Assembly: GCA_024372495.1 (NCBI GenBank)
Contig: CP099977.1
Coordinates: 3,224,001-3,288,000, forward strand
Length of the DNA: 64,000 bases
Direction of reading: 5' to 3'
Origin: Pseudarthrobacter sp. Fe7
Lineage (GTDB): Bacteria > Actinomycetota > Actinomycetes > Actinomycetales > Micrococcaceae
How positions within the stretch are numbered: the stretch's first letter is position 1; every line of letters begins with the position of its first letter. The notes under the pieces were generated by a model, which worked only from the letters and a program-made list of their open reading frames with translations, made no database searches and was not told the origin of the DNA. Below, piece after piece: positions 20,017-48,145 of this stretch. The position numbers and the translations under genes are program-made.

Positions 20017-20529
20017 ATGCAGCCGCGCCTCTTCGACCTCAGCTCTACATGGCAGCTCCCCGCCTCGCCCGAAAAGGTGTGGGCCGTGATCGCAGACACC
20101 GACATGAGTTGGCCCCAGTGGTGGCCAAACTGCACCTTCGCTGCGCCGCTTGAGCGAACTGAAGCCCTCAGTCAGGCCCCAGAGGAGATCCTAAAGGCCA
20201 CCACGGCGCACCTTAACTTCAAAGCCTTCCTGGGTTACACGCTCACCATTACCATCCACCCCACGAAGGTGGCCGCACCGCGTGACATAGAGTTCGACGC
20301 CGGTGGGCACTTGCAGGGCACCGGGCGGGTAACGCTGGTCCCCCAGGAGCAGGGCCAGGCAACGCGTATGGACATAGAGTGGCGCGTGCGGCCCACTCAG
20401 CGCTGGATGAATGTATTGACGCCGATTGCCGCTCCGGTCTTCGTAGCAGCACATGCCCTTATGATGCGGCAGGGAGAAAAGGGCCTGGAGCAAGCGGTGG
20501 CAAACAATCGGGCCAAGAAACCTGCGTAG
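20017..20529 (+). CDS. SRPBCC (START-like) family protein
   Basis: A 170-residue ligand-binding fold of the polyketide cyclase/START superfamily. Seen: STWQLPASPEKVWAVIADTDMSWPQWWP, the usual first strand and helix with the paired Trp residues, then a beta-rich middle and a long C-terminal helix with many Gln, Ala and Lys residues. Such proteins bind lipids or other hydrophobic small molecules and rarely have a recognisable catalytic site. It is the first gene of a plus-strand group with an MpaB-like oxygenase, an ImmA-like peptidase and a MAB_1171c-type membrane protein. Confidence 0.7.
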   Translation: MQPRLFDLSSTWQLPASPEKVWAVIADTDMSWPQWWPNCTFAAPLERTEALSQAPEEILKATTAHLNFKAFLGYTLTITIHPTKVAAPRDIEFDAGGHLQGTGRVTLVPQEQGQATRMDIEWRVRPTQRWMNVLTPIAAPVFVAAHALMMRQGEKGLEQAVANNRAKKPA

Positions 20530-20540
20530 ACCCGTCTACA
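20526..20540. promoter_or_regulatory. Palindromic site shared with 41111-41125
   Basis: GTAGACCCGTCTACA contains GTAGAC and GTCTAC around CC. It overlaps the stop codon of the SRPBCC gene and lies about 118 bases upstream of the MpaB-like gene. The identical 15 bases occur in the promoter region of an EspR-like regulator at 41111-41125, so it is a candidate operator for that regulator. Confidence 0.5.
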
Positions 20541-20657
20541 TCCGCCTAGCCAGGTGAGGACAACAGTTCTACGATGTAAGCAAGTTAGCCGAGCTGGGGA
20601 GCCGTCGCAGCCCACAGTTCGAGCATGCAATAGCAGGCACTAAGGACGGGGGCCACG

Positions 20658-21374
20658 ATGAACCTTCATCCCACCCTTGCTGAGAGCCTCCGCCACCAGG
20701 AGAGCCCTTCGTCGGATGACTGGGAAGCCACCTTCCGCACCATGGTCCTTTTTGACCTGGCAGCAGATATGGAGCTTGGCTTCTTCCTCTCGTACTACCG
20801 GAATTTTGCTATCCCAGGCATCGCGGCCTCTCTCTACGGGAACGGCGAAATCCAGGAGCGTCCCATGAAGCGCTCCTACGACACTGCAATCGTTATCTAC
20901 GAGCTCATCGCAAGCGGCCTGGACAGCGAACGGGGACAGCACATGGTAGCCCTCCTCAATCGCGCTCACCGCAACGTCCCCGGCAGCCCAAAGGACTACC
21001 TCTATGTCCTCCTGACCCTGCTGGTCGTCCCGATCCGCTGGGCCCAGCACCATGCCTGGCGCCAGCCCACAGGAGCAGAGCTGGCCGCCGCATCCCGCTT
21101 CTTCGCTGAGCTGGGGTCCCGGATGAACATACACGGAATGCCCGAGACCTATGCCGAGGCGGAACGATTCTTCGATCAATATGAGGCAACGCATGTCTCT
21201 CCATCGGTTGAAGGCCAAAAGTTGATGGACGCGACCGTTCAGGTCTTCCAGAGCCGTCTGCCGCTTCCTCTACGACCTTTCGCAGCACGCTTGATCAGCG
21301 TGATGCTTGCTGATCGCCGCCTTGTGGCCGCGCTCGGGCTTCCCCCACTGGCCAAATCTCCCGAGCCGCCCTGA
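20658..21374 (+). CDS. MpaB/DUF2236-family oxygenase-like protein
   Basis: 238 residues resembling the DUF2236 (latex-clearing/MpaB) family. Seen: FDLAADMELGFFLSYYRNFAIPGIAASLYGNGE near the N-terminus, RSYDTAIVIYELIASG, and LVVPIRWAQHHAWRQPTGAELAAASRFFAELG. The central region supplies His residues at the positions expected for heme or iron ligands in the family, but I cannot assign the ligand by eye. Members elsewhere act on isoprenoid or hydrophobic substrates. The position between an SRPBCC protein and an ImmA-like peptidase suggests a small-molecule-related pathway. Confidence 0.7.
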   Translation: MNLHPTLAESLRHQESPSSDDWEATFRTMVLFDLAADMELGFFLSYYRNFAIPGIAASLYGNGEIQERPMKRSYDTAIVIYELIASGLDSERGQHMVALLNRAHRNVPGSPKDYLYVLLTLLVVPIRWAQHHAWRQPTGAELAAASRFFAELGSRMNIHGMPETYAEAERFFDQYEATHVSPSVEGQKLMDATVQVFQSRLPLPLRPFAARLISVMLADRRLVAALGLPPLAKSPEPP

Positions 21375-21536
21375 GGAGCGTGTTGGCAGTCCGCAACAGC
21401 CTCCACCGAAGGCGGCCACTGAACCGCAAGCCGCATTTCACGCCAGGAAAGGCCGGCTCCTCCTTGTACCCGGGCGGTTACTCGCTCGACCAAATTGGCC
21501 CCGTCAATACTCCCGCCCCATCAACCTTCCGAAGCA

Positions 21537-21989
21537 ATGAACTATCGTGAAGCTCGAAAACTAGCCCGCAAGGCGGAGCAGGGCTTCGGCTTGCCCAACG
21601 CGCCAACGCTCCAGCTCATCAAGGACAAACTGGAACGGCAAAGAAACCGGCCCATCATTGTCGATGAACTGCGTGGCCTAACCGGATCGGAACTCTGCGG
21701 CGTGTGGCTTATCTGCGCGGACCGGGACATCGTGTTGCATGCCCCCGTGAAGTCGGCCTGGCACCGGCAGCAGATCGTCCTTCACGAGTTCAGCCACATG
21801 ATTCTCTGTCATGACCTCCAGGAAAGCAGTGCAGATCTTGCCGCGACCTTCCTGCCTGACCTGAGCCAGGACGTACTGCGCGTGCTCGGACGCAGCAGCT
21901 ACACAGACGGCGCAGAACTCATGGCTGAAGCCTTGGCCGACCAGGCTCGCTACTCGGATCATCAACAGCGACGTCGATGCCATGCCTGA
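21537..21989 (+). CDS. ImmA/IrrE-type zinc metallopeptidase-like protein
   Basis: 150 residues. Seen: QQIVLHEFSHMILCHD, which carries the HExxH zinc motif, and ELMAEALAD after it for the third ligand region. The N-terminal NYREARKLARKAEQGFGLPNAPTL and VDELRGLTGSELCGVWL parts are typical of actinobacterial ImmA/IrrE-like genes paired with MAB_1171c membrane proteins. Relatives of this family cleave repressors or regulate stress responses. The membrane-protein gene starts 30 bases downstream, so the two are probably co-translated. Confidence 0.75.
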   Translation: MNYREARKLARKAEQGFGLPNAPTLQLIKDKLERQRNRPIIVDELRGLTGSELCGVWLICADRDIVLHAPVKSAWHRQQIVLHEFSHMILCHDLQESSADLAATFLPDLSQDVLRVLGRSSYTDGAELMAEALADQARYSDHQQRRRCHA

Positions 21990-22019
21990 GCCCCTGGCAT
22001 TTCGACAAGTATTCGGCTG

Positions 22020-23024
22020 ATGGAAGCGGTCCCTGCCGCCGCACTCTGGGTCCTGACTGTTCTAAGGCTTCCAACAGCGCTCGATGCTCACCGTGGAAGC
22101 GTCTTCCGCGCCACTATCCTCGCTGCGATCGCCTGCACCCTTTATGTCCCAGCGGTCTACTACACCGTCGATCCATTACTTGGCGGACACAACCGCGTCG
22201 GGCTGGTTACCCTCTTGTCCTTGCTCCTCGGGTTCTGGCAGTTTCGCACGGCGATTCTGCTGGCGGCGGTTACAGATACAGAAGTACGACGGCGACAGCT
22301 CGTCTTGGGAAGGTTCGCTGCTGCCGCCGTGTGCTCCACAGTGACGGGCGGGTTTCTCGCCAGCCGCGTCGATGGCACCGATCCCAACTTGCCGCTGACC
22401 TACGCTGACCAGCCCGGGATGGCAGTCTTCCTCTGGACAGGCTCCGCTTTCATCATGGGGGTCTGCCTCGACATAGCCCGGGTCTGCCGCAGCAACGTCC
22501 CGCACATGCACGCACCGGCCTTCCGGTCGGCTTTTTCCCTCATCGCAGCGGGATGCGTCCTCTTCGCATTTGTCCTGCTGGACCGGCTGCTCTACGGCGC
22601 TGTGATTGCAGCTGAAGGCGCTGACAGTCAAACAGCCGCCGCACTGACAGGCTTCTACTGGATCGGAGAGACGGCTGCTGTGCTCCTGGTAAGTCTTGGA
22701 CTACTTCTCCCCCGCATGGCGGGACGCCTCCGGCAGGGCATCTTCGCGCTGCGGGCAAGGCTACTTCTCATGCAGATCAAGCCAATTTGGAATGACGTGA
22801 CAAGTTGCCAGCGTGAGCTCGTCCTGCAGGACCACCGCCCCGCTTTGCTCGTGTTCTTCTCCCGCCACGCGGAAACCCAGCTTCATCGGCATTTAGTCGA
22901 AATCCTAGACTGTGAATTGGCGAGTCCCCTAGCCCGCGAGCGCCTCAACGAACACCACTTGTCGGTAGTCGAACGCGCCGAACTCTTACTCGAGAGCCGC
23001 TCCACTCCCCACCTTCCTCGTTAG
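22020..23024 (+). CDS. MAB_1171c-type integral membrane protein (DUF6545-like)
   Basis: 334 residues with about seven or eight hydrophobic segments in the first 240 residues, followed by a soluble C-terminal domain. The tail contains IWNDVTSCQRELV and the HRHLVEILDCELASPL region, which resembles the conserved cytoplasmic part of the MAB_1171c family (regularly found next to ImmA/IrrE-like peptidases in actinobacteria). No transporter signature is present. A sensor or membrane anchor role with the upstream peptidase is as plausible as transport. The family name is from memory of the gene context and was not verified by search. Confidence 0.65.
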   Translation: MEAVPAAALWVLTVLRLPTALDAHRGSVFRATILAAIACTLYVPAVYYTVDPLLGGHNRVGLVTLLSLLLGFWQFRTAILLAAVTDTEVRRRQLVLGRFAAAAVCSTVTGGFLASRVDGTDPNLPLTYADQPGMAVFLWTGSAFIMGVCLDIARVCRSNVPHMHAPAFRSAFSLIAAGCVLFAFVLLDRLLYGAVIAAEGADSQTAAALTGFYWIGETAAVLLVSLGLLLPRMAGRLRQGIFALRARLLLMQIKPIWNDVTSCQRELVLQDHRPALLVFFSRHAETQLHRHLVEILDCELASPLARERLNEHHLSVVERAELLLESRSTPHLPR

Positions 23025-23119: not shown

Positions 23120-23629
23120 GTGAACCAGAAGAATTGCGAAGAGTGCCTTACCACTTTCGAAGCGACGCGGAGGAGCCACCGGTTCTGCTCCCAACGTTGC
23201 GCGAACAGGCACCGGAGTCGTCGCCACCGAGCCACAATTCGACCTTCTACAGTGCCGGCAACAACTTTGAGCTCGCCGCACCTCAAAGCGCAGTTACAGG
23301 CTACGAAGCGTCGTCTGGAGTCCGAGAGGATCTCCTGCGAGCGCCAACGCCAAGTGGTTCAGTCCAAGCTCCGCTCTCAAGCCGCTGAGATCGACCGGCT
23401 CGAAGCCGAGAGTTCGGACCAGCGGCTGAGCATCAACCTCCTCCAGTCGGAGGTCGCACGCCTTAAACGAGCTCAACGGACTAATGTGCAGGATCTGGCC
23501 CACACCGCGGCCTTGCTTGTCTCAATCTCCCGTGCCAAGGGAGTGGCTCTTGACGTCCGAACCTTGGACATCCTCCGCCGGCGGGGTTGGGATCCAAGCA
23601 AACAGCAGGCAGGGGCACCTCGACTTTGA
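23120..23629 (+). CDS. Zinc-ribbon and coiled-coil protein ahead of relaxase
   Basis: 169 residues starting at GTG 23120. The N-terminus has CEECLTTFEATRRSHRFCSQRC followed by basic residues, a four-cysteine zinc-binding motif of a kind that often contacts DNA. The middle (about residues 55-125) is a long heptad-rich coiled coil (ATKRRLESERISCERQRQ, then QSKLRSQAAEIDRLEAES). Two bases separate its stop from the relaxase start at 23632, so it is likely a relaxase accessory protein, for example one acting at oriT. That function is inferred from position only. Confidence 0.6.
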   Translation: MNQKNCEECLTTFEATRRSHRFCSQRCANRHRSRRHRATIRPSTVPATTLSSPHLKAQLQATKRRLESERISCERQRQVVQSKLRSQAAEIDRLEAESSDQRLSINLLQSEVARLKRAQRTNVQDLAHTAALLVSISRAKGVALDVRTLDILRRRGWDPSKQQAGAPRL

Positions 23630-23631
23630 CC

Positions 23632-26600
23632 ATGTCTATCGCACGTCTGTCAGCCCGGTCGGGTCTGCGCTACCTGTTCAAGACGACGATGATGGATGAC
23701 TTTTCCGGTTCTCCCCGGACCCCACCACGTACTACATGAAGGCGGGCACACCCCAGGGGCGTTGGATTGGCGGCGGACTAAACGGCATCAGTAAGACGCT
23801 GGGTGACGCCGTCACGGAAACCGACGCAAGAGCGGTATATGACATGGCGGTGCATCCGCAGACCGGCGCTCCCCTGGGCACGCCGCACGCCCAATCTGCC
23901 GCTGTCGAGAACAAGGCCGGCCAATCAGCTCAACGGCATGCGGTCGTTGGCTTCGACCTGACGTTCAGCGTGCCAAAGTCGGTGTCCGTACTCTGGGCGC
24001 TGAGCCCGCACAGCAAGCAGCAGCAGATCCTGCAAACCCACCACGAAGCGGTCGAGGCAACCCTTGCATGGCTGGAAGCGAACGTCATCCACACCAGGGC
24101 CGGCCGTAACGGAGTCGCCCATATCGGCACGCAAGGAGCTGTTGCCGCCGCGTTCGACCATTGGGAGTCACGAACCGGCGATCCGCAGGCTCCACACCCA
24201 CCTGGTTATCGCCAACCGCACACAACGTGTCACCGACGGAGCTTGGGTCACCCTCGATTCCCGGGCTCTGTACAAAGCAGCGGTCGCGGCGAGCGAACAC
24301 TACAACGGCCTGCTGTTCGACGCCTTCCAACGGGACCTTGGGTGCGACCCTGAGATCCGCACTCCCCTCACCACAACGCACAACCCCAGCCAACAGCTCA
24401 TCGGGATCGATGAAGAACTCGTCCGCGAATTCTCCAATCGGTCCCGCCTCATCGACTTGGAAACTGATCGTCTTGTGGCAGCGTGGACCAAGGATCACGG
24501 CCAGACTCCCTCGGCTACGACCACCATCAAACTCCGCCAGCAGGCAACCCTTTCTACTCGTGCCCCAAAGCCCGAGAGTCCCACACCACTGCACCAGCTC
24601 TCTGAACAGTGGCAGGCTCGAGCAATTGCCAAAGGTTTTCAGCCATCTGACGTCCTCGCCCACACCATCAACCGCTCCCGCGTCGCCCCTTTTACCTTCC
24701 TGGACTTCACTCCCGACTGGACCTCCGCTGTCGCGACCATCGCCAGGGAACGGGTTGCCGGAAAACGCTCAACCTGGAACCGCTGGAACCTACTTGCAGA
24801 AGCGGAGAGAGTCTGCGCCCAAATCCGCTGCAGCACCTCATCAGACCGGGCCGCTCTGATAGATGCAGTCGCCACCGCTGCCGAAGAACAATCAGTGCCC
24901 CTGAACGAGTACCGCTACTCCCTTCCACCGAACGCTGGCCCGGACATGCAGCTCAACCAGCGGAGCGTTTTCGACTTTCATGGGTCACGCCTCTACACCG
25001 ACGCTTCAACACTCGCTTGCGAGGATGCCATCATGACAGTAAGGAAGGACGACGGCGGACCGGCTGTCCGCCCATCAGTCGTCATGGACTCGCTGGACAG
25101 CGGCCGCCGTGTGCAAGTGCCCAGGCTACATGCCGATCAGCGCGCGGCAGTTGCGGACGTCGTCCTTAGCGGAAACCGGCTGGACGCCATCGTCGGCCCG
25201 GCGGGAACGGGAAAAACCACCACGTTGAGCGCGGTGAAGGCAGTTTGGGAGGCAGAGCACGGGGCGGGCAGTGTCATCGGGCTGGCCCCGGCTGCCGCGA
25301 GCGCGGAGGTGCTGGGCACGGAACTTCGCATGGTCACCGAGAACGTTACCAAGTGGCTGCACGAGTCGCTGGGACACGGGGCGGCCACACGGGCTGACCG
25401 CTTCTTCCTCATTGGGGAACTCCTGAGTTCGTCCAAGTACAGCGACCGCCGGAGCACCGTATTCGCCCAGGAAGCTGCCCGACTAGCCGCAACCCAACAG
25501 CGCTGGTGCTTCCACCCGAATCAGCTCGTCATCATTGACGAAGCGTCCATGGTGTCCACCTTTCAGCTTTCTGCACTTGTGCAACAAGCAATGGAAGCCG
25601 GCGCGAAAATTCTCCTGGTAGGAGACCCAGGCCAGTTGGACGCAATCGAGGCCGGCGGCGTCCTCGGCTGGCTGGACCGCCAGGGACTCACCACCCGCCT
25701 CAGCACTATCTGGCGATTCCACGACGAGTGGGAGCGCACCTCGTCCCTCAAGCTGCGGGCAGGAAACTACTCGGCGATCGAGGACTACGAGCAGCATCGG
25801 CGGATCCGCCACGGCTCCTACCTAAGCATGCTGGACGAGGCGTATCTTGCGTGGCGGGCCGACAGGCGCGCCGGTAAGTCGTCCATCCTGATTGCCGCAG
25901 ACAACGAGACGGTCAGCATGCTCAACGAGCGGGCCCGAGCAGACCTGGTGGCCCAGGGAGTTGTGGATGCAGAGCGGACAGCTCAACTCGCCGACGGCTT
26001 GCAGGCCGGTTCCGGTGACACCATCATCACCCGCGGCAACAATCGCCGAATCATTGACAGCGAAGGAGAATTTGTCCGAAACGGGACGCTGTTCGACGTC
26101 AGAGCGGTCAACAGGCACGACGGCTCAGTTCTCGCAGTGCGGCGGGAGACTGGGGCGAGCGTCGTACTCCCCCGAGCCTATCTTGAGACTGCCGTTGAGC
26201 TCGGCTACGCGACTACCGCTCACCGATCTCAAGGCCTTACGGTCGATACCGGGCACACAGTGGTCACCCAAGGACGGTTGACCCGCGAGCCTGCTCTACG
26301 TGAGCATGACCCGCGGCCGGTGCGGGAACGTCGCATATGTCAGCGAGGGCGACGACTCAGAACACCAGGCCGTCGACCCCTCGCAGCAGCTGTCGTGGCG
26401 CAGCATCCTTGGTGAGGTACTGGCCGCAGAGGGTGCCGAGCGGACTGCCCACGAGGTCCGCGAGACAGAGCGGAGGAAGGCGGACAGCCTTGAGCGGCTG
26501 TCCGCCGAATACGACTATCTGGCGCAGATTGCTGCCGGTGAGGACCTCGGGCGCTTCCTGGGGCAGGTTGCACCGGTCGCAGTGGGACTAAGCGCGTCAC

Positions 26601-27184
26601 CGTCGTGGGGTGCCGCAGTTGCGGCCTGGCGAAAGGCCATAGCGGTCAACCGTCACGGGGCAGAGCGCGTCATGGAGCGAACCGTGCAGGACAGCCATTC
26701 AGTGCACGACCCGGTGGCCCTCCTCAGCGCGCGGCTTCGTCGCTGCACAAAAGGAACGCCGACGACGGCGGTAGACCCTTTGCGCGAATCGTTCCCTGTG
26801 CTGGGACCCGAGTTGGCAGACATGATCGTCCAGGTCCGCAAACGCATTCGGCAAAGGATGGAATCCGTCACCTGGGCTGCCCTGACGCAGGATGCTCCGT
26901 GGAAGGACGAACTGACTGCCGCCGTGGGTGCGACAGAATCCTTGGGCGGACTGATTCGCGACGTTGCCATGTTCAGGGACAGATGGGGAATCTACGATTC
27001 CCACCTGCCATTGGGAGCTCCCCCGGCGGACTACGAGTGGGAACAGTTGCAGCAGCGGGAAGAAATCCAGGAAGCAATTGAAAGCGCCGGAAGCTGTCAG
27101 GCCGACCCTCACACGGAGATGAGCCCATCTGACGTGCACGGATTGCAGCAAGTCGTCCTTACGAGTTTCGGCTGGCAGATCTAA
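23632..27184 (+). CDS. MobF (TrwC/TraI-type) relaxase-helicase, three frame breaks
   Basis: Nicks oriT and unwinds the transferred strand; 1183 residues when restored. The true start is ATG 23632 (MSIARLSARSGLRYLFKTT, with a candidate nucleophile Tyr near residue 14), not the internal ATG at 23736. The relaxase domain has YYMKAGTPQGRW, FDLTFSVPKSVSVLWAL and the metal-binding DPQLHTHLVIANR (restored). The RecD-like helicase domain has Walker A VGPAGTGKTTT (near residue 520), VIIDEASMVST, LVGDPGQLDAIEAGG and TTAHRSQGLTVDTGH. The breaks are T4 instead of T5 at 23701, CAGGCTCC at 24186-24193, which destroys the HxH motif, and GAGCCTG at 26287-26293, which destroys the REALYVSMTRG-type block. With these undone nothing essential is missing. 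Confidence 0.9.
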
Positions 27185-30029: not shown

Positions 30030-30543
30030 TCAGAATTCGGGAACCAGTTGGTGGGCCGCCTTGCACCAGTCAAGGAAGGCCGGATCGTCGTTCGCAAGCA
30101 TGCGCGGTGCGGGCTCCTTGTGTGCCTGCAGTCCGACGCATCCGGCCGCCCTGGTGTGCGTCCTCAGGCGTTCGACGGCGTGTGGGAGCCTTTCGTGAAA
30201 GGCGAGCGGCCCAAAGCCCGGATCGTCCGTCATGTAGGAGGCCAGGCTCCGCGCGGTGCAGCGCGTACAACTCGGCCACGATCTCAGGGTGACGCCACCA
30301 GCAGTCCGGGACGACCGACGTCGTCAGTTGGTAGGTGGCCACGAGCCATCGCACCCACGCAAATAGCGATCGCCATGCCTCCTGCGATTGCTCGGTCGTC
30401 ATCTCCCGCCAGCGGCGGGTCACGGACTTGGGCCCAGCCTGTCCGGCAAATGCCGACCTGAAGAGTTGTGCAGTAATCTCGTCGTCCCCAAAGGAGCCTG
30501 AGGAGGGAACATCAAACTCATCGACGTTGTCACGGCTATGCAT
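30030..30543 (-). CDS. DUF4913-family protein, one frame break
   Basis: 170 residues when restored. Seen: a conserved Trp-rich core LFAWVRWLVATYQLTTSVVP followed by CWWRHPEIVAELYALHRAEL, then DDPGFGPLAFHERLPHAVERL. This matches the DUF4913 proteins that accompany actinobacterial TraG/VirD4 genes. CAGGCTCC at 30243-30250 should read CAGCTCC (HRAELASYMTDD restored). Its start overlaps the TraG stop by eight bases. The function is unknown. Position suggests a coupling-protein partner. Confidence 0.75.
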
Positions 30544-32353
30544 CAGGAGCCCCTTCGGTCTTCTGTTGACGCTGCTTGTGCCCGTCGGCCAACAGGCGCT
30601 CCATCTCAGCCTTCAGGCGGCGCAGTTCCCCGGCGTCCTTGCGCTTGTGCCATTCCAGGAGATCCAACAAAATGGGCCGCGTGCGCCGACCCAGCATGAG
30701 TGCGGTGCCAGCAGGGAGGCGTCGAATCTCGTCCAAGGCGATCACCGGACGGTCGCGAAGCTGTTCGCCGTCCTGCCGGCCCTGTGACGACCAGGAACGC
30801 GTGGTGAGCGTCAAGCTACGCTCGCCGAGCAGACCGGCGAGCGATCGGAGGTCGTGTTCGTCAGATCCGCCTCCGAAAATCACCTTGATGATGGCGGAGT
30901 CCCATATTGTTGACGCTTCATCGATGGACCAGCCCGAACGGGCCTGAGAGAGGGATTGGAGGACGACCAAGGTGGAAATGCCGATGCCGCCGCCATCAGC
31001 CAGCGCCACGGGTAGGCCCGGCCAGGGAGCCAAGTTGGCGATCTCATCGAGTATGAGGGACAGCGGCGGCTCAAGCCTGCCGCCTGGCGAAACGAACGCC
31101 ATTTCGCGTGCCGCGCTGTCAATGTCGTCGATCAGGGCGGAAAGATATGGACCGGCAGCAGCCGCGCCTGCCCGCGTGCCGATCAAATAGAGCGTGCCCC
31201 GTTCCCGAATGAACGCCTTCGGATCAAACTCCTCGGACTCATCCTGCGGGTTCAGTGCAGCCAAAACCTTCGGTGAAGACAGCGGGGCAACCGCTGCTGA
31301 GACGCCGATCCAGGAGTTCGAGGTATTCCGCGGGTCGTCTTCCAGGATTCCCATCAGGTCTGACTGCCAACCAAGCGCCGCGCCAGGCCTGCCCAGCACT
31401 TCCAGCGCTTCCCGGGCAAGCACAGGGCTAGAGGACCAGCGTCGGAATGCAGCCACTCCCTCGCCGGACATGGCAGCAGCATGGAGCAGGCATTGGAGGA
31501 CGATCAGCGAGCGCTTCTGCCACGCAGCGTTTTCGCCCTTCATCTCCGTGTCCGCGGTAATGACCAGCGCTCGCCGGGTGGCAACGTCCGGGTCCTCACA
31601 TCCCCGCACCGGTGACCAGCGGAGGGACGACGGCAAGCCTGACATGCCCTGGGGATCGAACACCGTCACCGGGCGCCCGCCAGAAGCCCTTGCCTTCATG
31701 GTCACTACAAGGTTGTCAGCCCGAGTAGACGTCGTTACGACGGCACCGGGCGCGTCGAGGATCGCATTGATGACCACGTAGAGGCCCTTGCCGGATCGGG
31801 GAGCACCTTGGATCACCATCGATTCTTCAGTGGAAACGTGGACCGTGACGCCGCGGGATCGGCCAAGGGTCCAGGACAGATCCTGCACCGAAGGCTTCAC
31901 CAGTCCCGGGCGGGTGAACTTTCCCCGCTTCCGGACCGCCCTCGCCCCAAAGTCGTGGACGATTTCGGCGCGACGGGCAACTCCGTCGCGGTTCAGGATG
32001 TCCTGCCGGAGCCACGCCCCCGATTGCTTCCACCGTCTCCACGCAATCAGCGCAGCCACGGCGAGCGCTCCGACCAGCAGCAGGGCCGGAGCCAGGATCC
32101 ACCAAACGCTGTCCGTGCCGATTGCGCAGTCCCCATGGCGCATGACAATCCAGTCCATCCTGTTTGCCAAAAGTCCGACGACGGCACCCGGGTTGAAAGG
32201 CGACGGCGGCAAGGCGCCGCAGTGCCAAGACGTCGCGAGTTGCGCCGCGGCCTGCACCAGCGCGCAGAGACATACGTAAGCTGCCGCTCCAGCGAGAGCA
32301 GCGGTGACGAGCGGATTGTCGCTGGCAGCCCGGGAACTCACTGGCTGTCTCAC
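30536..32353 (-). CDS. TraG/VirD4-type conjugative coupling protein
   Basis: Membrane-anchored ATPase that hands the relaxase-DNA complex to the secretion channel, 605 residues. It has two N-terminal hydrophobic segments (about residues 15-40 and 75-100), Walker A QGAPRSGKGLYV near 185, Walker B LSLILDEIANLAPWPGL near 434, and a C-terminal IALDEIRRLPAGTALMLGRR. The GTG start at 32353 overlaps the VirB4 stop as GTGA. As printed, the sequence fuses it in frame with VirB4 because of one extra base at 32383-32390. The N-terminal start VRQPVSSRAASDNPL is the family-like one. Confidence 0.87.
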   Translation of the reverse strand: MRQPVSSRAASDNPLVTAALAGAAAYVCLCALVQAAAQLATSWHCGALPPSPFNPGAVVGLLANRMDWIVMRHGDCAIGTDSVWWILAPALLLVGALAVAALIAWRRWKQSGAWLRQDILNRDGVARRAEIVHDFGARAVRKRGKFTRPGLVKPSVQDLSWTLGRSRGVTVHVSTEESMVIQGAPRSGKGLYVVINAILDAPGAVVTTSTRADNLVVTMKARASGGRPVTVFDPQGMSGLPSSLRWSPVRGCEDPDVATRRALVITADTEMKGENAAWQKRSLIVLQCLLHAAAMSGEGVAAFRRWSSSPVLAREALEVLGRPGAALGWQSDLMGILEDDPRNTSNSWIGVSAAVAPLSSPKVLAALNPQDESEEFDPKAFIRERGTLYLIGTRAGAAAAGPYLSALIDDIDSAAREMAFVSPGGRLEPPLSLILDEIANLAPWPGLPVALADGGGIGISTLVVLQSLSQARSGWSIDEASTIWDSAIIKVIFGGGSDEHDLRSLAGLLGERSLTLTTRSWSSQGRQDGEQLRDRPVIALDEIRRLPAGTALMLGRRTRPILLDLLEWHKRKDAGELRRLKAEMERLLADGHKQRQQKTEGAPDA

Positions 32354-33796
32354 AGCATCCTGTCGTCTGTCCCGAAAACGGCCAGGCTCGTCCGTCGTCA
32401 CGCGGTTGGCAACGATGAAGGAGCGGTTGCCGACTTTCCAGAGACCGACGCCCTTCGGCAGGTTCTCAACGTGCTCGCACTCAGCTTCCGTGAGGCCCAA
32501 GGCTTCCTTTGTAAGTCGCATGGCATCATGCTTCTGGCGGTAAATGATCCTGGTATCTGCTTCGGTGAGGAGGCCCAGGGCTTTCTGCCGATGTCCGCTG
32601 GTACTGTCGCCGATCTCGTTGAGGTCAGCGACCTTGTGCATTATCAGCAGGTTGGCAATGCCGTATGTTCTGGCAAGGCGCCATTGCTCGCTCATTTTCG
32701 CCAACATGTAGGGATCGGCGAGCATCCGCCAACCTTCGTCGTACACGACAAGGCGCTTGCCGCCGTCGGGATTGGTGATTGCCGCCTCGAGCCAGGTGGC
32801 GCCGCAAGCGGCGGCTAGCGAAAGGGCCTGCTCTGACGCTCCGATGAGGGCGGAGGTATCCATCACCATCATTGGGGCATCCGCGTCGAAGGCTACGGTA
32901 GACGGAGCATCGAACATGCCCTCCAGATCACCGGACACCGTGCGCCGAAGGGAATGGCTGACGGCCGTTCCTCCCTCCGCGCCGACGAGAGCCACCATCT
33001 CCTTCGACGGTCGCAGTAGATGGTCAAGCACCATCGGCAATGTGGGATTGGAGTTTTCCGCCATGGTTTCCATAAGGGCGATATCCAACGCTGTGTGCTC
33101 GACGGGTCGGAGCGGCATCCCTTGACGCATGAGGGAGACCAGTGCCACCAGGAGATACCGGCGTCGTTGCCGAACGACAGCCTGCCACTGCGCCTCGGTG
33201 AGGGCGCTTGACCGTGGCCCGGCGTCCAGCGGATTTACTCGTGCCGGACGGCCAGGTCCGACGGAGATGACTTTTCCACCGACAGCTTTGGCGACGGCGA
33301 CCCACTCACCCTTGGGATCAGAGGCGACCGCTGCTTTCCTGCCCAACGTAATGGACCGCGCCACGAGCGACTTGCCGCACATCGATTTGCCTGTGCCGAC
33401 GGTTCCGATAACGACGATGGATGGGCCGCTGATGATCCCTTTGTCGTAAAGGATCCAGGGATCGTAGGAGAAGGCTCCCGACCCAAAGACATCGGTTCCG
33501 ATGTAGGTGCCTTCGTGCCCCAGCCCCGATTCGGTAAGAAAAGGGTAAGCGGCCGCGAAGGTCATGGTTGAGGCGCGGTGCGGCGCTGGACGTAACCGGT
33601 GCGGGCCCCGGAGCGAGTTCGGTTCTTTACTCCCCCAATCGCCCGTCACGCGAAATTTCTGAAGTCCCGGCTGTTCATGCTCCGACGGAGCACTCGCCCG
33701 CCCGGGCTCCTGTGGTGCCGGTCGGCGTCGTGCTTTCCGTTCGTCCCGGTTCTTGTCCGACGGAAGGTATTCGAAAGTGGCCTTGGTTGTCTTCAT
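32350..33796 (-). CDS. VirB4-type conjugation ATPase, one frame break at its end
   Basis: Energises assembly of the type IV secretion channel; 481 residues when restored. Seen: Walker A IGTVGTGKSMCGKSL near residue 135, SDPKGEWVAVAKAVGGKVI, Walker B KRLVVYDEGWRMLAD near 349, and an arginine-rich LARTYGIANLLIMHKVADL. CAGGCTCG at 32383-32390 should read CAGCTCG, giving the end VTTDELAVFGTDDRML and TGA at 32350. Uncorrected, it runs into TraG as one 1102-codon frame. It starts at 33796 as ATGA with the SCO6880-like gene. It is shorter than proteobacterial VirB4, with the missing N-terminal part perhaps supplied by that neighbour. Confidence 0.87.
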
Positions 33797-35292
33797 CGCA
33801 GTCCCCTCCCCAGTGGCAGGCCGCTGGCAACAAAGGCCGCCCATTGCTGTCCGTAGAGAAGCCGCAGCTCAACGAAAGCGCCCGCCGCTGCGGACTCAAG
33901 CTCCTGGCGGTGCCGTGCCAAGTCCTCCAATGAAGTGGCTGTGACGGTCATATACGCGGCCGGGCGGACGTCACCGTGGCCGGCGACTATCTCTTCCTCC
34001 CGTTGTGTCACTTCTTCCTCCTCGGCCCTTTGCTCACGGGTGAGCGGTCTGTCGAAGCGTGCATTGATGCGGCGACGGGTCTCGTGGGCTTCCTGGGCTG
34101 AGCGGATGTCACGAAGTGCTTCTGCGGTCGGTACCGCCCGAATAACCTCGGTGAAGGTGTGGCGGAATTCGCCCACATAGATCAGGGGGTGGAGGAAGCC
34201 CGGGAAGACTTTCTGCCGCGGCCATTCAGCAATCCAGAAGGTCTGATGGAAGCCGGAATCTGTCCGCAGGTAGGTCCAGTGCTCCTCTACGCCCATCGGG
34301 CCCTGCCTCATGAGCTCATCCGTAGACTCTGCTGCTGGTGCGTTCGACGCCGGAGCTGTCGCGGCCGTGGCTTTGCCGGCGGGCAGAAGGGCAGGATCGA
34401 AGGCACTGCGGATGATGGCAAGCAGCCCCGGCTCGCCGAGCCATTCATCGACTTTGACGTTGTGGGTACCCAGCGACGTTCGTATCGCCTCGACTTCGAG
34501 CCGCAGGACGTGTTCAAGGCCGGTGACGCCCCCGCCTGACTCCCTGATCCGCCGTCGCGCCTTGCTCGTGTCCAGGACAACCGAGACAAGCAGCTCATGG
34601 CTCATAGCTGAGCCCGCGGCGCCCAGTAAGTCCTCGTACGCGCGGCGTCCCCAAGCAGCATCTTCCTTGCAGTCTCGCGCCGGCAGGGCATTCTCCCTGT
34701 AGAAGTCCCAGAGGGACGATGACGGGTAAGGCACGGTGTAGTCCTGGATGGCGATGCGGGCAACGCTTTGCCGTTGGGCCATGCCGGCCTGAACGCGTGA
34801 CCAGGCCTGGACTGCCCACGCTTTATCGTCAGCATCCAGGAGAGCGAATGAACGCGTACTGCACTTTAGCACCGCGATTGCTTCCTTGCCGTGGCCATCG
34901 ACCAGGAAGCATTCCCCACGGGCGGTTGCTCGAATCTCCAGATTGCCCAACCCTCCCGGGAGGGCAAGTCGGCCGGCGATGCGTGGAGCTTCAGGCTTTG
35001 CGAGGAACCTCGTCTGGCCCGCCGCTGCGCGGTAGAAGAACGTCGCGATGTGTTGTGCCCAGACTGGATATGGGACACGGGAGTACTGCAGTATTCCGAG
35101 CAGTATCAGCGCGAGCCACATAGGCCCAGTGGTGAATAATCCGATTGGACCATGGCTCGCTGATGCAACGATGGCGACGGTAACTCCCGCGGCCACAATG
35201 AGCAACTGGTACCACTTGAGCCCGAGGAAGAAGCCGCGGCGCTCGTACCTTGGGAATTTGACGGCTTCCAACGCGCGCCCGTCTTCAGACAT
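33793..35292 (-). CDS. SCO6880-family conjugation protein
   Basis: 499 residues. Two hydrophobic segments follow the N-terminus (LKWYQLLIVAAGVTVAIVAS and FTTGPMWLALILLGILQY), then a large cytoplasmic domain with a long charged helix (about residues 415-470, rich in Glu and Arg). Similar proteins precede VirB4 ATPases in actinobacterial elements and resemble the N-terminal part of VirB4 or the PrgI/TraC region. ATG 35292 is preceded by AAGGGAGG; the frame is open upstream but not conserved. It overlaps TrbL (8 bases) and VirB4 (ATGA), so it is in the transfer operon. Confidence 0.75.
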   Translation of the reverse strand: MSEDGRALEAVKFPRYERRGFFLGLKWYQLLIVAAGVTVAIVASASHGPIGLFTTGPMWLALILLGILQYSRVPYPVWAQHIATFFYRAAAGQTRFLAKPEAPRIAGRLALPGGLGNLEIRATARGECFLVDGHGKEAIAVLKCSTRSFALLDADDKAWAVQAWSRVQAGMAQRQSVARIAIQDYTVPYPSSSLWDFYRENALPARDCKEDAAWGRRAYEDLLGAAGSAMSHELLVSVVLDTSKARRRIRESGGGVTGLEHVLRLEVEAIRTSLGTHNVKVDEWLGEPGLLAIIRSAFDPALLPAGKATAATAPASNAPAAESTDELMRQGPMGVEEHWTYLRTDSGFHQTFWIAEWPRQKVFPGFLHPLIYVGEFRHTFTEVIRAVPTAEALRDIRSAQEAHETRRRINARFDRPLTREQRAEEEEVTQREEEIVAGHGDVRPAAYMTVTATSLEDLARHRQELESAAAGAFVELRLLYGQQWAAFVASGLPLGRGLR

Positions 35293-36656
35293 GAGGGGTG
35301 CCTCCCTTCGGAGGATCAATTCTTGGTGACTGGGGTTTCGGAGGTTGAGTGCTCGACGGGCCTGGCGTGTGAGCGGCAGGCCGCGCTCGCGGTCCCGGTT
35401 CGGTAGGTGTACTCTGCCGGGCTGGCGCTGGAGCGGCGCCGCCTTGGCTTGGCGCACTTGAACGCACGAACCCTCTGGGTTCCGCGGACTGCGGTGCTTC
35501 CGGTGATCCGGTTGATGATCCTGTCTTCAAAGCTCTCTGTCCTGCATCGGGGCCCGGTGAGGTCAAGCCGGCGGGCACAGGAGGAGCTGACACCTGTGTC
35601 GGGAAGACGTTACGGCTCGAATTGATGGGCCGTGTCATCGCGGAACGACTCACCATGTTCGCGAGAGTCAGTCGGCCGCCTGCCTGCCGACTGATTTGGC
35701 GGGCCGCAACACTGGTGCTTCGCGACAGAACGTGGCCACCGCCCGCCGTTTGCGCAGCTGCAGCCAGTTCCCCTCCAGCGAAGCTCACCAAACGCAGGGC
35801 CATCATGGGTGCCCCACACGCGAGGGCCATGCCGACGGTTCCCGCTGCCAAGCCCGCGAAGGACTTGGAATCGGCAAAGAGCTTCACGGCGACGGCCAAG
35901 ACGGTTGCAGCCAAGGGCTTGGCCACAACCAACGCGATGACAACCTCACACCAACGACGAGCCCAGGATTTTGTCTTGTCCCAGGGCAGCAGCATAAGGG
36001 CCACGGGTGCGACGGCGGCGAGGACGACAAGGGCGAAGGAGCGGAAGATCATCGAGCACATCAGGATGAAGGCGAGTATCCAAACGACCACGACGGCCAT
36101 CATGGTCACCACGGCCGCACCCGCCGGCCCGCCGGTGGTACCGGGAGCCAGCGAGACCAGGTTCCATTCCCGGCCGCTTCCCTGGGGCCCTCGTTCAAAG
36201 CCGAAGAGCCGCATGAAGACGAGGTAGGGATCAGAGCCAATTGACTGCAGCAGAGCGGCAGACGCTAGATCTGTTGCCCTCGTCAACTGCCGGACGAGGT
36301 ACACAGCGGCGCCCACCAACGGGATCGCGACGGCTCCGCCTATCATCGCCCTTCCAATACGTCTGGGTTGCTGACTAATGAGCCCGGAGAGCAGCTGCAG
36401 AATCATCACGACGGCGAGCGGAGTCAGCATTACAACCACCCACCAGGCTCGTGAGTCCCTGGATGGACAACCACTGGGAGTCGTCGACGTTCGACACAGT
36501 GAAGGCACCCGTGATGAAGGCCCACAGCCACGACGCCATGTTCTGCAGAATGTTTGCGAACAGTGACGTGACCGCGCCGAGGGCGTTGTCGTTTGCCTGT
36601 GACACCAAGCCGCATCCGGGCGGCCACCATCCATTGAGATCGCACTCAACGGGCAT
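35285..36656 (-). CDS. TrbL/VirB6-like polytopic membrane protein, one frame break
   Basis: Channel membrane component, 456 residues when restored. The N-terminus (MPVECDLNGWWPPGCGL) is followed by about six hydrophobic segments up to residue 270, including WWVVVMLTPLAVVMILQLLSG and ALVVLAAVAPVALMLLPWDKTKSWARRW. The last 150 residues are a Pro/Ala/Ser-rich, probably disordered tail. CAGGCTCG at 36444-36451 should read CAGCTCG; the repair joins IQGLTS to WWVVV. It starts four bases after the small pilin-like gene. Confidence 0.78.
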
Positions 36657-36659
36657 GAC

Positions 36660-36947
36660 CTAGAACCCGAGAGGGAATGCGGTTTGCGACCAGAGGATGT
36701 AGCCGTTGATGCCGCCAAGGATGGCAGCCACGGGGCCTGTCCAGAGGAGGATCACGCCTCCGCTGGAAGCCAGGCGCGACGATTGGCTCAGCTTGCCGGC
36801 CAGCAGCAGGGCTGCGCCGATGATCGCCACGATGGCGATGATGATGAAAGCGCCGACCAGGATGCCGCCGCCAATTTGTTTGAGCGATTCAAGGAAGGGG
36901 AAACTCGCGTTCGGCGTGATTCCCGGGTCCACCGCTGCCAGTAACAT
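36660..36947 (-). CDS. Small two-segment membrane protein, TrbC/VirB2 pilin-like
   Basis: 95 residues. After a short N-terminal part (DPGITPNASFPFLESL) come two hydrophobic segments (IGGGILVGAFIIIAIVAIIGAALLLAG and VILLWTGPVAAILGGINGYIL) separated by a basic loop. That size and layout fit the VirB2/TrbC pilin position, immediately before TrbL. A typical pilin signal peptidase site is not obvious, so it may instead be a small scaffold protein. Confidence 0.6.
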   Translation of the reverse strand: MLLAAVDPGITPNASFPFLESLKQIGGGILVGAFIIIAIVAIIGAALLLAGKLSQSSRLASSGGVILLWTGPVAAILGGINGYILWSQTAFPLGF

Positions 36948-37173: not shown

Positions 37174-38296
37174 TCAGCGCGGAAGCAGATCAAAGTAGAC
37201 GGTGCCGGAATTCCAGCTAATTGGATGCAGTAATGTACCCACGGCGGGGTTCAAGGCGCTCCACATCATGCCGTTGCCCGCGTAGATGCCAACGTGCCCC
37301 CAGTTATCCGGTCCTTGGGGATTCTGAACCACCAGGTCCCCCGGCTGCGGGTCGTCGGTCCGAACCCCAACACGCCACTGCTCCACCCGCGGCAGTTCGA
37401 TTCCAGCCTGCCGATAGATCCATTGCACGTAGCCGGAACAGTCCCAGGCTTTGAATGCAGTGCCGCCCCACACATACCGTCCACCTAGACCTTCCTGCGT
37501 GAACCGCAGAATGTCCTGGCGGAGCTGACTCAGGTTTTTCCAAGAGGCCGCAGGCCCCACTTTGGGCGGCGAAGATGAGCAAGGAGGCTGGCGACGTGTC
37601 CGGTTCCAACGCAGCAACGACTGCTGTCGCTGCACGCTCCCAACGCGCGTAAAGCTCGGGAAAAGCAGATACCTGGACTGCCTGAGCAGCCAAGTCTTTG
37701 TCCATCGCCTGCCACCCCGGTACGTCGAGCAGCCCTCGAGGACTTCCTCGGTTGGGACCCAAAGGGCCGCCGTAGAAGGCGCGGGCGTTGTAGAAAACGT
37801 CCATAAGCTGCTCAACGCTCCCCCACCCTGCCGTGGGACGTTGTTGAGCCGAGCCTATCGAGTCATGGTCGCTCCCAACGCCATCATTTGGAAAACCCAT
37901 GGAAGCCGGAACCCTGGGATTTGCGAGTACGCGCAAACTCGACTCCTGCATTGCCATCATGATGGCAATGATCTGTCCCGAACGGGGTACACCAAGCTGT
38001 TTTCCGACCCCAATGTACGCGCGAGCCACTCTTTCCTGTCGCGAGTTCAGCTCGTATAGCACCTGGCTACCATCGCGGACCTCCAGGCCATCGCCAGTCC
38101 CCGTACCCGTGCTGATAGATGCAGCATCAGCCGGAGCACAAGCGACAGCTGGCTCTCCTCTCAGACCGGCAAGTAGAGCCACACCCGCGACGAACGCCAT
38201 CAGGCCGAGAAGCACAAGGACAGTCACAGCGGCAGCGACACCTTTCAGCAGTGCCCGCCTTCTAGCCAGACCGGCCACGGCCATAGGACCGACCAT
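37174..38296 (-). CDS. NlpC/P60 (C40) cell-wall hydrolase of the transfer apparatus, one frame break
   Basis: Locally opens peptidoglycan for the conjugation channel; 373 residues when restored. It has an N-terminal membrane anchor (GVAAAVTVLVLLGLMAFVAG), a lysozyme-like helical region with QIIAIMMAMQESSLRVLAN and GSAQQRPTAGWGS, and a C-terminal NlpC/P60 domain with AWDCSGYVQWIYRQAG (nucleophile Cys) and NWGHVGIYAGNGMM (His). The frame is lost at the C4 run 37555-37558, where one base appears extra (QSGPAASWKNL restored). It overlaps the TcpC-like gene as ATGA. Two wall-active domains in one protein is usual for actinobacterial elements. Confidence 0.85.
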
Positions 38297-39042
38297 CAGT
38301 AGACGATCCGGTCCGCGGTCGCATAGAAGGCAACCATGGCGCAGCGGTCAGCCGGAGCTGTAGCCGCAGGCGGGCAGTTCAGCATCACCGTTATAGGTGC
38401 GGAATAAGTGTTTCGGTCCCTGCTCGTCTCATCGAGCACTTGCACGGTCACAGTGCACACGTGAAGGCCAGCCCACGGCGGAGGGAATTCTTGAACTTTG
38501 GCTAGCTCGAGATCGCAGCGAACAGATTGGGCTTTGGCGCTCCGGCGCGCCGACTCCCGTCCAGGGCTCGCGAAGGACGTGGCCGTCACACCGGTGGCCT
38601 CGAACTCTTTGACCAACACCGATAAGGGGTTGGATCCATCGGGAAGCAACTCCCACCACGAGCGCACCCGTGCATACACGTCCGAATACGACGACGAGCG
38701 GCTGTCCCAGGTGTAGATTCCCCTTGCTGCCTCTACAGCGAGCGCACGGAAGTCGCGCGTTGGCGAAAGATCAACAGGCGAGGCCAGTACAGCCACATTG
38801 GTTTCACCAGGGAGAGCAGAGGGCGCGCCCGTTGCTGACGGTGTCCCGGAAGGTACTGACGGTGGAGGCGTGCTTGGTATCGGGCCTGGGACCGGCGCCG
38901 CAGCGGGCCTATCGACCGGCCACAACAGGATGACAAGGCCGCCTATCAGCAACACAACGAAGAGTCCGGCAACGAACGAGCGCTGACGGCCCACCGCGAG
39001 GAGTGCACGCAGTCCCCGGCTCCCCGTCCCCCAGCTAACCAT
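38296..39042 (-). CDS. TcpC/VirB8-like conjugation protein
   Basis: 248 residues with one N-terminal membrane segment (SFVAGLFVVLLIGGLVILLW), a Pro/Ser-rich linker (about residues 50-80), and an extracytoplasmic domain containing ARGIYTWDSRSSSYSDVYAR and two Cys (SVRCDLELAK, GLHVCTVTV). The topology fits the NTF2-like TcpC/VirB8 scaffold proteins of Gram-positive systems. It follows the sigma-like gene after three bases and overlaps the wall hydrolase by ATGA. Confidence 0.7.
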   Translation of the reverse strand: MVSWGTGSRGLRALLAVGRQRSFVAGLFVVLLIGGLVILLWPVDRPAAAPVPGPIPSTPPPSVPSGTPSATGAPSALPGETNVAVLASPVDLSPTRDFRALAVEAARGIYTWDSRSSSYSDVYARVRSWWELLPDGSNPLSVLVKEFEATGVTATSFASPGRESARRSAKAQSVRCDLELAKVQEFPPPWAGLHVCTVTVQVLDETSRDRNTYSAPITVMLNCPPAATAPADRCAMVAFYATADRIVY

Positions 39043-40035: not shown

Positions 40036-40061
40036 CAGAAGCTACAGAAATTATTGTCGAA

Positions 40062-40076
40062 GATACTTATAGTATC
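40062..40076. promoter_or_regulatory. Inverted repeat between divergent regulators
   Basis: GATACT-TAT-AGTATC is a perfect six-base inverted repeat in an AT-rich patch. It sits 52 bases upstream of the winged-helix gene at 40128 and just upstream of the divergent sigma-like gene. It also contains a TATAGT -10-like hexamer, so a bound regulator could block a promoter. Confidence 0.5.
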
Positions 40077-40127
40077 GTCAAGGGTGCCGTTCTTACTTTT
40101 TCAGCAGCCTTCGGGAAGAATGTGGCT

Positions 40128-40451
40128 ATGCCACGGATTACCCAGCCACACGACGCCGCCTGGTCGGCCGACGTTGAGGCTGCCGTCGCTACCTTTGGCA
40201 ACCGGTCGCGAAATGAAATTCTCCGATTCCTAACGGCCAACGGACCAGCGACGCGCGGCGACATTGTCGCCGCCGTCAGCGCCGGCGAACCAAGCGTAGC
40301 CAAGCACCTCGCGGCCTTGGAGGACGCGGGCGTGGTGATTGTCGACGTCGAACCTGGGCGCCGGCACGGACGGTCGCCCCGGTACTCGGCCAACGCCATC
40401 CGTATCAAGGAACTGCTCGACGCGCACCTAAGCTACCTACTCGAGAAGTAG
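40128..40451 (+). CDS. ArsR-like winged-helix regulator
   Basis: 107 residues from ATG 40128 (MPRITQPHDAAW). The winged helix reads FGNRSRNEILRFLTANGPATRGDIV followed by VSAGEPSVAKHLAALEDAGVVIV and a basic wing RRHGRSPRY. An in-frame start upstream at 40008 exists but overlaps the inverted repeat and is not conserved-looking. It is similar in pattern to the protein at 41168 (both have NR-R...LRFL..GPA), so the two are paralogues flanking the EspR-like gene. Confidence 0.8.
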   Translation: MPRITQPHDAAWSADVEAAVATFGNRSRNEILRFLTANGPATRGDIVAAVSAGEPSVAKHLAALEDAGVVIVDVEPGRRHGRSPRYSANAIRIKELLDAHLSYLLEK

Positions 40452-41109: not shown

Positions 41110-41125
41110 TGTAGACCCGTCTACA
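41110..41125. promoter_or_regulatory. Perfect palindromic site, candidate operator
   Basis: TGTAGAC-CC-GTCTACA is a perfect seven-base inverted repeat in the divergent region between the EspR-like gene (41046, minus) and a winged-helix gene (41168, plus). GTAGACCCGTCTACA is repeated exactly at 20526-20540. Confidence 0.6.
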
Positions 41126-41167
41126 GCTAGTTCACCCCTACCTCAAAGTCATTCAGCGGTGGTCTCC

Positions 41168-48059: not shown

Positions 48060-48145
48060 ACAAAAAACGGTACGCCGCTGTCAACACATTAGGCGGATTT
48101 GTCAACACGTCAAGGGAAATTCGCCTCTGACGAGGCAAAACACTG

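Follow-up and report, generated by a model that had tools for sequence, protein, structure and literature searches.

What do an SRPBCC protein, an MpaB-type oxygenase, an ImmA/IrrE-type zinc peptidase and a MAB_1171c-like membrane protein do side by side? The question is raised by a stretch of 64,000 nucleotides of the soil bacterium Pseudarthrobacter sp. Fe7 (contig CP099977.1, positions 3,224,001 to 3,288,000; the whole stretch is called the window below), where the four genes sit in what looks like an integrated conjugative element at about 20-48 kb of the window. An earlier note on this DNA had described them as a cargo cluster and had outlined a signalling model, in which the membrane protein senses, the peptidase relieves repression and the two remaining proteins make or bind a small lipophilic molecule. 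The answer proposed here, which we consider probable on balance, is that these genes form the sensor half of a switch of the conjugative element which works by repressor cleavage. The gene set is probably regulatory, the control panel of the element, and "cargo" was probably the wrong word for it. To our knowledge, it is poorly known how actinobacterial conjugative plasmids and integrative and conjugative elements (ICEs) time their transfer. The locus yields a circuit that can be put to the test and whose components have names: a palindrome present at two sites, a protease, and candidates for the regulator and the receptor. If true, this reading gives a role to families whose present label is "putative transporter" and, partly, "toxin".

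The four genes and their core pair

The SRPBCC protein (polyketide cyclase/dehydrase-like, 170 amino acids (aa), 20017..20529), the MpaB/Lcp-type oxygenase (DUF2236, 238 aa, 20658..21374), the ImmA/IrrE-type zinc peptidase (150 aa from the ATG at 21537, 21537..21989) and the MAB_1171c/DUF6545-like membrane protein (334 aa, 22020..23024; MAB below) are encoded by adjoining open reading frames (ORFs), all on the forward strand, as had been claimed. The first two proteins exceed the cut-offs of their profiles, with 35 bits versus 27.4 for PF10604 (E 2.1e-8) and 57.9 bits versus 23 for PF09995 (E 2e-15). MAB scores 89.3 bits (E 2.4e-25) with NF042915, below the curated cut-off of 100 bits, and is therefore treated as a relative of the MAB_1171c family; a protein 46% identical to it carries this family annotation. 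The peptidase, whose ORF opens at a TTG at 21495 (164 aa), matched no Pfam profile, PF06114 included, and NCBIfam profiles only below threshold (E 0.03 and 0.16), so its assignment to ImmA/IrrE follows from the HExxH motif (here HEFSH), the fold and relatives annotated as ImmA/IrrE, not from PF06114. What PF06114 does match in the window is an anti-restriction protein of the ArdC type (28932-29876) whose peptidase domain is M78-like. In all 35 peptidases aligned, the window copy included, H83, E84, H87, R119, E127 and E131 are invariant, and R119, E127 and E131 are kept at 90% or more in a second set of 44 sequences; the third-ligand Glu would hold that role by analogy. An R, a T and an H of MpaB, kept in 17 of 17 aligned rows, are candidate haem-site residues which may be equivalent to the haem residues of Lcp. 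Searches of solved-structure sequences with MpaB and with ImmA gave no credible match.

The association of these families was claimed earlier and has now been counted in 118 non-redundant loci, chosen by ImmA similarity (146 genes collapsed at 97% identity; among the relatives of ImmA on genome contigs, the best 80 of 204 were used), with gene calls and cluster profiles of our own. A MAB-type gene lies directly downstream of ImmA and on the same strand in 113 of the 118 loci, which is not chance, and the two genes overlap by 4 bases in 67 loci and by 1 base in 32 (99/113). The remaining five loci are L142 and L144 (where DUF6545 is annotated), L225 (a contig end), L157 and L194. Relatives of ImmA (E <= 1e-3) occur in 44 of 119 genomes, its own included, and on 46 plasmid records, among them those of Micrococcaceae, Streptomyces, Rhodococcus and Mycobacterium; the pair is also present on the nicotine plasmid pAO1 and other plasmids of the Arthrobacter group. 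In five plasmid loci outside Micrococcaceae, NCBI annotation places MAB_1171c or DUF6545 right after the ImmA relative in every case. Viral contigs gave three partial matches (residues 19-102), in which our profiles called only an HTH (helix-turn-helix) gene. The ImmA-MAB pair is a wider actinobacterial unit, and the SRPBCC-MpaB-ImmA-MAB quartet is one local variant, found in full in 13 of the 118 loci, all in Arthrobacter-type genomes. The statement that the combination recurs in actinobacteria thus stands for the pair, not for the quartet. Confinement of the quartet to one genus group might be expected if the genes were unrelated passengers which hitch-hike without a functional link, and no MobF relaxase was called near the quartet in L043-L045. 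This explanation is strongly disfavoured and hardly credible, since the genes overlap, one enzyme is swapped within a fixed frame, and the palindrome described below persists even in G022, where 45-139 kb separate module and regulator.

The window copy has several broken frames. MpaB (238 aa versus about 297 aa in its clade) leaves the frame of its relatives near the 3' end, the last codons of ImmA, its C-terminus, are out of frame in comparison to relatives, and the relaxase, CHAP and EspR-like genes of the element are likewise split. The assembly is 78.9% complete, most of the listed related genomes being at 99-100%, and the breaks are likely, though not proven, to be sequencing or assembly errors. 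Intact copies exist in sister genomes, with ImmA and MAB overlapping there. The gap of 30 bases between ImmA and MAB, to which attention had been drawn, is true of the window; it is a frame effect and not the native spacing, because of the loss of frame at the ends of ImmA and MpaB noted above. An IclR-type regulator gene at 18491-19266 may continue in another frame, as a possible further break.

Predicted structures were obtained for both partners. The model of an intact sister ImmA from Arthrobacter liuii (L146; predicted local distance difference test, pLDDT, 80) resembles IrrE (3dte, Z 10.5, root-mean-square deviation (rmsd) 3.1, 106 residues aligned), PprI (8sln, Z 10.2) and CapP (7t5t, Z 8.7), and Foldseek ranks the same families (IrrE/CapP) first, at E 0.01-0.1. 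The MAB model (pLDDT 89) comprises seven membrane-length helices, the last of which continues into a cytosolic helix followed by a small helical tail. Mean numbers of lysine plus arginine in the loops are 3.1, 1.7, 3.5 and 6.5 on one side and 0.9, 0.9 and 0.3 on the other, and it is from these positive-inside charges that an N-out/C-in topology is assigned. Four residues do not vary in 59 sequences: G227 and, within the cytosolic tail, R290, E294 and D297. By model and loop charges, the window MAB is predicted to be a seven-helix integral membrane protein adjoining ImmA, a description of the family which is ours and not a curated rule. The closest solved folds are G-protein-coupled receptors (GPCRs) and rhodopsins (Foldseek probability up to 1.00, E >= 0.02). 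MAB could instead be a transporter of a lipid or signal, with ImmA independent of it and co-translation serving dosage only, as the NCBI family label "putative transporter" suggests and as neighbouring enzymes able to make an exported product would allow. A receptor is the better fit to seven helices, the N-out/C-in topology and a cytosolic tail with R290/E294/D297 invariant. Pfam showed no energy-coupling domain, and the top structural neighbours are receptors and rhodopsins; a transporter is considered quite unlikely.

The EspR-like regulator and the shared palindrome

The candidate target of the peptidase is an EspR-like HTH regulator (cluster c2, called by cluster profile), which is encoded on the reverse strand at 40532..40950, in two frames here and intact in sisters. 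Positions 12-144 of its family profile match EspR of Mycobacterium tuberculosis (3r1f) over the full length, E 5.4e-28. Such a gene is present in 43 of the 44 ImmA-bearing genomes versus 7 of 75 others (Fisher p 8e-24, uncorrected for genome kinship; ImmA at E <= 1e-3, EspR-like at E <= 1e-15, scoring limited to 32 candidates in each genome). The sole ImmA genome without the regulator, G012, has a locus (L046) with no MpaB gene call and no palindrome. An EspR-like HTH gene belongs to the same-strand run in 86 of the 118 loci. In the quartet clade none adjoins the module: in the window, G026, G009, G056 and G035 the gene lies about 19-30 kb off (about 19 kb in the window) on the same contig and the opposite strand, beside CHAP and other transfer genes. 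L059-L065 and similar ICE loci have two EspR-like paralogues, as if in a cascade, with different palindromes: the ImmA operon is preceded by TGGACATGTCCA, the second regulator by TGTAGACGGGTCTACA.

The regulator also resembles, more weakly, the PADLOC capH profile (L077 E 1e-6, L038 E 0.007), and this likeness is one of the reasons to ask whether the XRE-ImmA core could be a toxin-antitoxin or defence-control module of the CapH/CapP kind, serving stability or immunity and not sensing or transfer. The annotation of some relatives reads "toxin" or "regulator component", and such a role was proposed for XRE-COG2856 by Makarova et al. 2009 (excerpt of PMC2701414). On the other side, the four window proteins are without a PADLOC match, no toxin or CBASS (cyclic-oligonucleotide-based anti-phage signalling system) gene was seen in the core maps by our own cluster profiles, and an excerpt of PMC10233336 reports that an ICE ImmA is non-toxic in E. 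coli. This alternative is judged very unlikely.

The two ends of the element share a palindrome, GTAGACCCGTCTAC, a candidate operator of the EspR-like regulator. One copy (20526..20539) covers the SRPBCC stop codon, about 126 bases before the mpaB start, and the second (41111..41124) separates the EspR-like gene from an HTH gene which diverges from it. With up to one mismatch allowed, the window has just these two sites, where 0.07 are expected; 1 of 100 shuffles reached two. In its own 4.47-Mb genome the exact palindrome occurs twice, before mpaB-immA-MAB and before the EspR-like gene. With the CC/GG centre, there are genome-wide two sites each in G000, G026, G009, G056 and G065, four in G022 (two modules, two regulators), one in G035, where the module copy has one mismatch, and none in G012. 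Five of these eight genomes have one more site each with another centre, and the reversed-pattern control gave 0 in all eight. Among 2.93 Mb of fetched, partly redundant loci, 47 exact sites were counted, 14 in the SRPBCC-mpaB spacer and 33 before an EspR-like gene. At up to one mismatch the palindrome is kept in 14 of 15 aligned SRPBCC-mpaB spacers while the flanks diverge, and most relatives in the window clade repeat the two-site pattern of operon plus regulator gene. The third exact-arm site, at C1:355478 of G000 (another centre), is a longer hairpin, TGGTAGGTAGACCAGTCTACCTACCA, between called genes, whose reverse complement stands at G026:C1:413772; it was judged unrelated and is probably the site of another regulator.

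More broadly, a related dyad, TGGAC-N2-GTCCA, was found in 26 of 80 distinct upstream regions, the best shuffled dyad reaching 3 in 20 rounds. In 50 of 118 loci a module gene has a GACNNGTC palindrome (at least 6 pairs) at most 300 bases upstream, versus 16 of 1651 other genes in these loci. In L034, L035, L083 and L212 a palindrome stands before the sensor operon and also in the region before the transfer operon, and TRGACNNGTCYA occurs within 400 bases of 9 of 57 CHAP genes versus 24 of 1977 controls, redundant loci included. The TGGACATGTCCA type has just a chance-level near match in the window, at 62609. The shared palindrome fits a model in which the peptidase relieves an EspR-like regulator, because that model predicts it. 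An HTH regulator, an ImmA-type peptidase and candidate operator sites are, on sequence grounds, all carried by one conjugative element.

A possible cleavage switch

In the proposed switch, a dimer of the EspR-like regulator would bind both palindromes and hold mpaB-immA-MAB, a tight operon in the sequences of intact relatives, together with its own gene in a set state; binding to both palindromes is the step of which we are most confident, and it is considered very probable. The seven-helix MAB would bind a hydrophobic ligand, either an external one or one present in the membrane, and its conserved cytosolic tail would then license the co-translated ImmA to cut the EspR-like regulator. Cleavage of the regulator by ImmA is regarded as probable, the gating of ImmA by MAB as marginally so. 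Loss of the regulator would shift the expression of the operon and, directly or indirectly, transfer, although transfer as an output in the window element is slightly doubtful. MpaB, or in relatives an alpha/beta hydrolase, a PAP2-type enzyme or a cytochrome P450, would make, modify or remove the ligand, and SRPBCC may carry it; that the ligand is lipophilic and handled by MpaB is put forward only tentatively. It can be said that the signalling idea of the earlier note gains from the EspR-like gene as genomic partner, from the operator-like palindrome shared with mpaB-immA-MAB and from a receptor-like seven-helix MAB, and that it loses the set as cargo and the quartet as a general arrangement.

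The enzyme slot is the variable part of the module. In the same-strand run of the 118 loci an alpha/beta hydrolase was found 43 times, MpaB 31, SRPBCC 18 and a PAP2-type gene 14 times, and the place of MpaB is occupied elsewhere by hydrolase, PAP2 or P450 genes. This swapping hints at a lipophilic chemistry of MpaB and SRPBCC. A P450 is annotated after MAB in one Streptomyces and one Mycobacterium plasmid, in the latter followed by a methyltransferase, and seven neighbours which were scanned include amidase, amidohydrolase and FAD-type proteins (two of the seven gave no match). In L158, L164, L165 and L173, SRPBCC stands straight before ImmA-MAB-DUF4192 with no MpaB and no GTAGACNNGTCTAC palindrome nearby, an arrangement from which it follows that SRPBCC can pair with the core alone.

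A fixed sensor-peptidase core with a varying slot (MpaB, hydrolase, P450, PAP2) is also what a BlaR1-like detoxification system would present. There, MAB would be the sensor of some foreign hydrophobic compound, ImmA would remove the regulator, and the slot enzyme would destroy or modify the compound; the genes would be useful cargo. The P450 genes after MAB in the Streptomyces and Mycobacterium plasmids and the amidase, amidohydrolase and FAD-type neighbours suit this alternative, as does the presence of BlaR1 (8exq) among the weak fold neighbours of the ImmA model (Z 4.3). According to an excerpt of PMC8707978, knock-out of MAB_1171c in M. abscessus lowered the minimum inhibitory concentrations (MICs) of some drugs and biofilm; the same excerpt lists one identical lowered clarithromycin MIC for 9 of the 12 "MIC" mutants, and the effect is thus not specific. 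In four loci a palindrome is present also in the region before the transfer operon, where cargo would have no use for it. Detoxification is considered unlikely.

Several observations weigh against the cleavage switch. If the count is started from the MAB family, ImmA is directly upstream in just 11 of 20 loci fetched in a phylum-wide draw by our own profiles, or in 13 of 20 if L138 and L140 are read by their NF042915 positions. No Foldseek match of the ImmA or the MAB model reached E <= 0.001, and the GPCR-like score of the latter (7xp6, Z 15.8, rmsd 3.4, 212 aligned) is close to the range of unrelated helical bundles; since these can reach Z 14 by chance, the likeness is read as a receptor-like arrangement, not as homology. 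Kinship of MAB with HisKA_7TM proteins received no support from a profile comparison with L110 and L106, five further HisKA_7TM loci standing outside it; the weak NF042915 matches include a HisKA_7TM/GAF protein (L110), a histidine kinase (L106) and, in a scanned frame, an FtsX permease (L109). By the strict GACNNGTC test, 68 of the 118 loci are without such a palindrome. The regulators of G022 lie 45 and 139 kb from its two modules and that of G065 on another contig, so the regulator is not bound to travel with its module. No palindrome turned up before CHAP in the window clade (L250, L251, L253, L254; the split window gene uncounted), and control of transfer there would therefore be indirect. 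The palindrome is placed upstream of the likely mpaB promoter (located by eye), which makes activation as possible as repression. The SRPBCC gene, upstream of the palindrome, may be a separate transcription unit regulated apart, and no recurrent palindrome was found before it. MpaB, ImmA and the regulator are, moreover, all frame-broken in this assembly.

If the switch is taken further, a seven-helix receptor-like protein, a co-translated zinc peptidase, cleavage of an EspR-like regulator and an exchangeable lipid-active enzyme which makes or destroys the ligand would form a new signalling class, used for a lipophilic mating signal in plasmids and ICEs of Micrococcaceae, with the core reused elsewhere in Actinobacteria together with P450s and other tailoring enzymes. 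This extension is speculative and regarded as doubtful. Gram-positive bacteria usually use oligopeptide signals, according to an excerpt of a review (PMC6540685).

The element and its known counterparts

Location of the genes inside a conjugative element, as had been assumed, is borne out by a relaxase, the ArdC-type protein, a coupling protein, a TrbL-type protein, an integrase and a tRNA-Leu in the window. A protein with a zinc ribbon and a coiled-coil-like part (c25; 23120..23629, forward strand; cluster profile E 5.3e-49, Pfam matches sub-threshold only) adjoins MobF in sister loci. The MobF/TrwC relaxase (23700..27184, forward strand) is spread here over at least three ORFs: PF08751 is matched in two pieces and the c21 relaxase profile in ORFs 23700-24350, 24004-26412 and 26282-27181, sisters having one ORF of about 1184 aa. 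On the reverse strand are encoded a TraG/TraD-type coupling protein (30536..33844; PF12696 E 4.1e-24, PF02534 E 1.3e-20), a TrbL/VirB6-type transfer protein (35285..36718; PF04610 E 1.3e-7) and, in two frames, the CHAP-type cell-wall hydrolase of the transfer operon (c3; 37177..38347; E 5.5e-66 and 2.5e-21), whose family is called CHAP from annotated plasmids, the longer window ORF itself having no Pfam match. Two small MarR/ArsR-like HTH proteins (c4, by cluster profile; 40008..40451, E 3e-45, and 41159..41449; forward strand) are encoded on either side of the EspR-like gene. An alpha/beta-hydrolase remnant (c5; 41412..41615, reverse strand; cluster profile E 8.1e-7) represents a family which accompanies ImmA-MAB in sister elements. 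At 41531-45698 other genes replace the ImmA-MAB-hydrolase set of sister elements such as L061, the hydrolase remnant being left, and weak PADLOC matches are found there (PD-T4-9-like at 43342-43899, PDC-M06B-like at 43917-44606).

The tyrosine integrase (47013..48059, reverse strand) is over the cut-off with PF22022 (28.6 bits) and below it with PF00589 (22.6 versus 27.1). The right end is formed by a tRNA-Leu (caa; 48145..48227, reverse strand), which is common to sister elements and is the probable integration site. The window at 20-32 kb has 89-93% DNA identity to G009, G026 and G056, and over much of 36-49 kb it has matches to other elements located at this tRNA-Leu. At the left end no attachment-site repeat was found, and the boundary is set near 20 kb because homology to G026 and others begins there. 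A second module is present in the same cell, on contig C2 of G000 (86 kb; L085, L086), with a PAP2-type gene and CHAP/transfer genes; two occurrences with the same scores lie about 67.3 kb from each other, which points to a circular plasmid with an overlap in its assembly. A further MAB-like gene (245 aa; G000:C1:4243243-4243809, L262 7228-7965), with no ImmA profile match nearby, is probably an orphan or remnant.

Among the matches listed, no description of an ImmA-MAB-regulator system was found in open-licence literature; DUF6545 is named in no open-licence paper searched and MAB_1171c in one, PMC8707978. The nearest known counterparts are regulator-peptidase pairs of mobile elements. The transfer genes of ICEBs1 are freed when its peptidase ImmA cuts the repressor ImmR (excerpt of PMC6540685), and ImmR/ImmA of TnSmu1, CapH/CapP and DdrO/IrrE are presented as parallel pairs in an excerpt of PMC10233336, according to which TnSmu1 and ICEBs1 integrate at tRNA-Leu too. 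An HTH regulator and an ImmA-type zinc peptidase on a conjugative element are common to ICEBs1, TnSmu1 and the window; unlike them, the window system has an EspR-type regulator, a co-translated seven-helix membrane protein and a swappable enzyme, and its regulator and peptidase are about 19 kb apart in the element. With CapH/CapP of CBASS it shares an XRE regulator (PADLOC capH) and an IrrE-fold peptidase (CapP 7t5t). The regulator family profile matches 7t5u, a structure labelled just HTH protein, at E 0.003, and we take this structure to be CapH. In contrast to CapH/CapP, no CBASS match was obtained among the four window proteins plus six others scanned, and the CapP chain has 278 aa versus about 160 aa for the peptidase of the window system. 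CapP is stimulated by single-stranded DNA (excerpt of PMC10233336).

DdrO/IrrE (PprI) of Deinococcus has the same catalytic fold, with the 3dte match given above (Z 10.5 over 106 residues), whereas a peptidase of about 160 aa has no room for the further domains of IrrE (a chain of 247 residues), and the context here is a mobile element. EspR of M. tuberculosis (3r1f) is similar to the regulator family over its full length, but the window-type regulators are tied to conjugative elements and to the ImmA-membrane protein pair. BlaR1-BlaI and MecR1-MecI combine a membrane sensor, a zinc peptidase, a cleaved regulator and an enzyme in the regulon. The likeness to them is one of logic only: here the sensor and the peptidase are separate genes of other families and the regulator is of the XRE type. 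In short, the window system would work like an ImmR/ImmA switch, and what would be new in it is the membrane component, the EspR-type regulator and the exchangeable enzyme.

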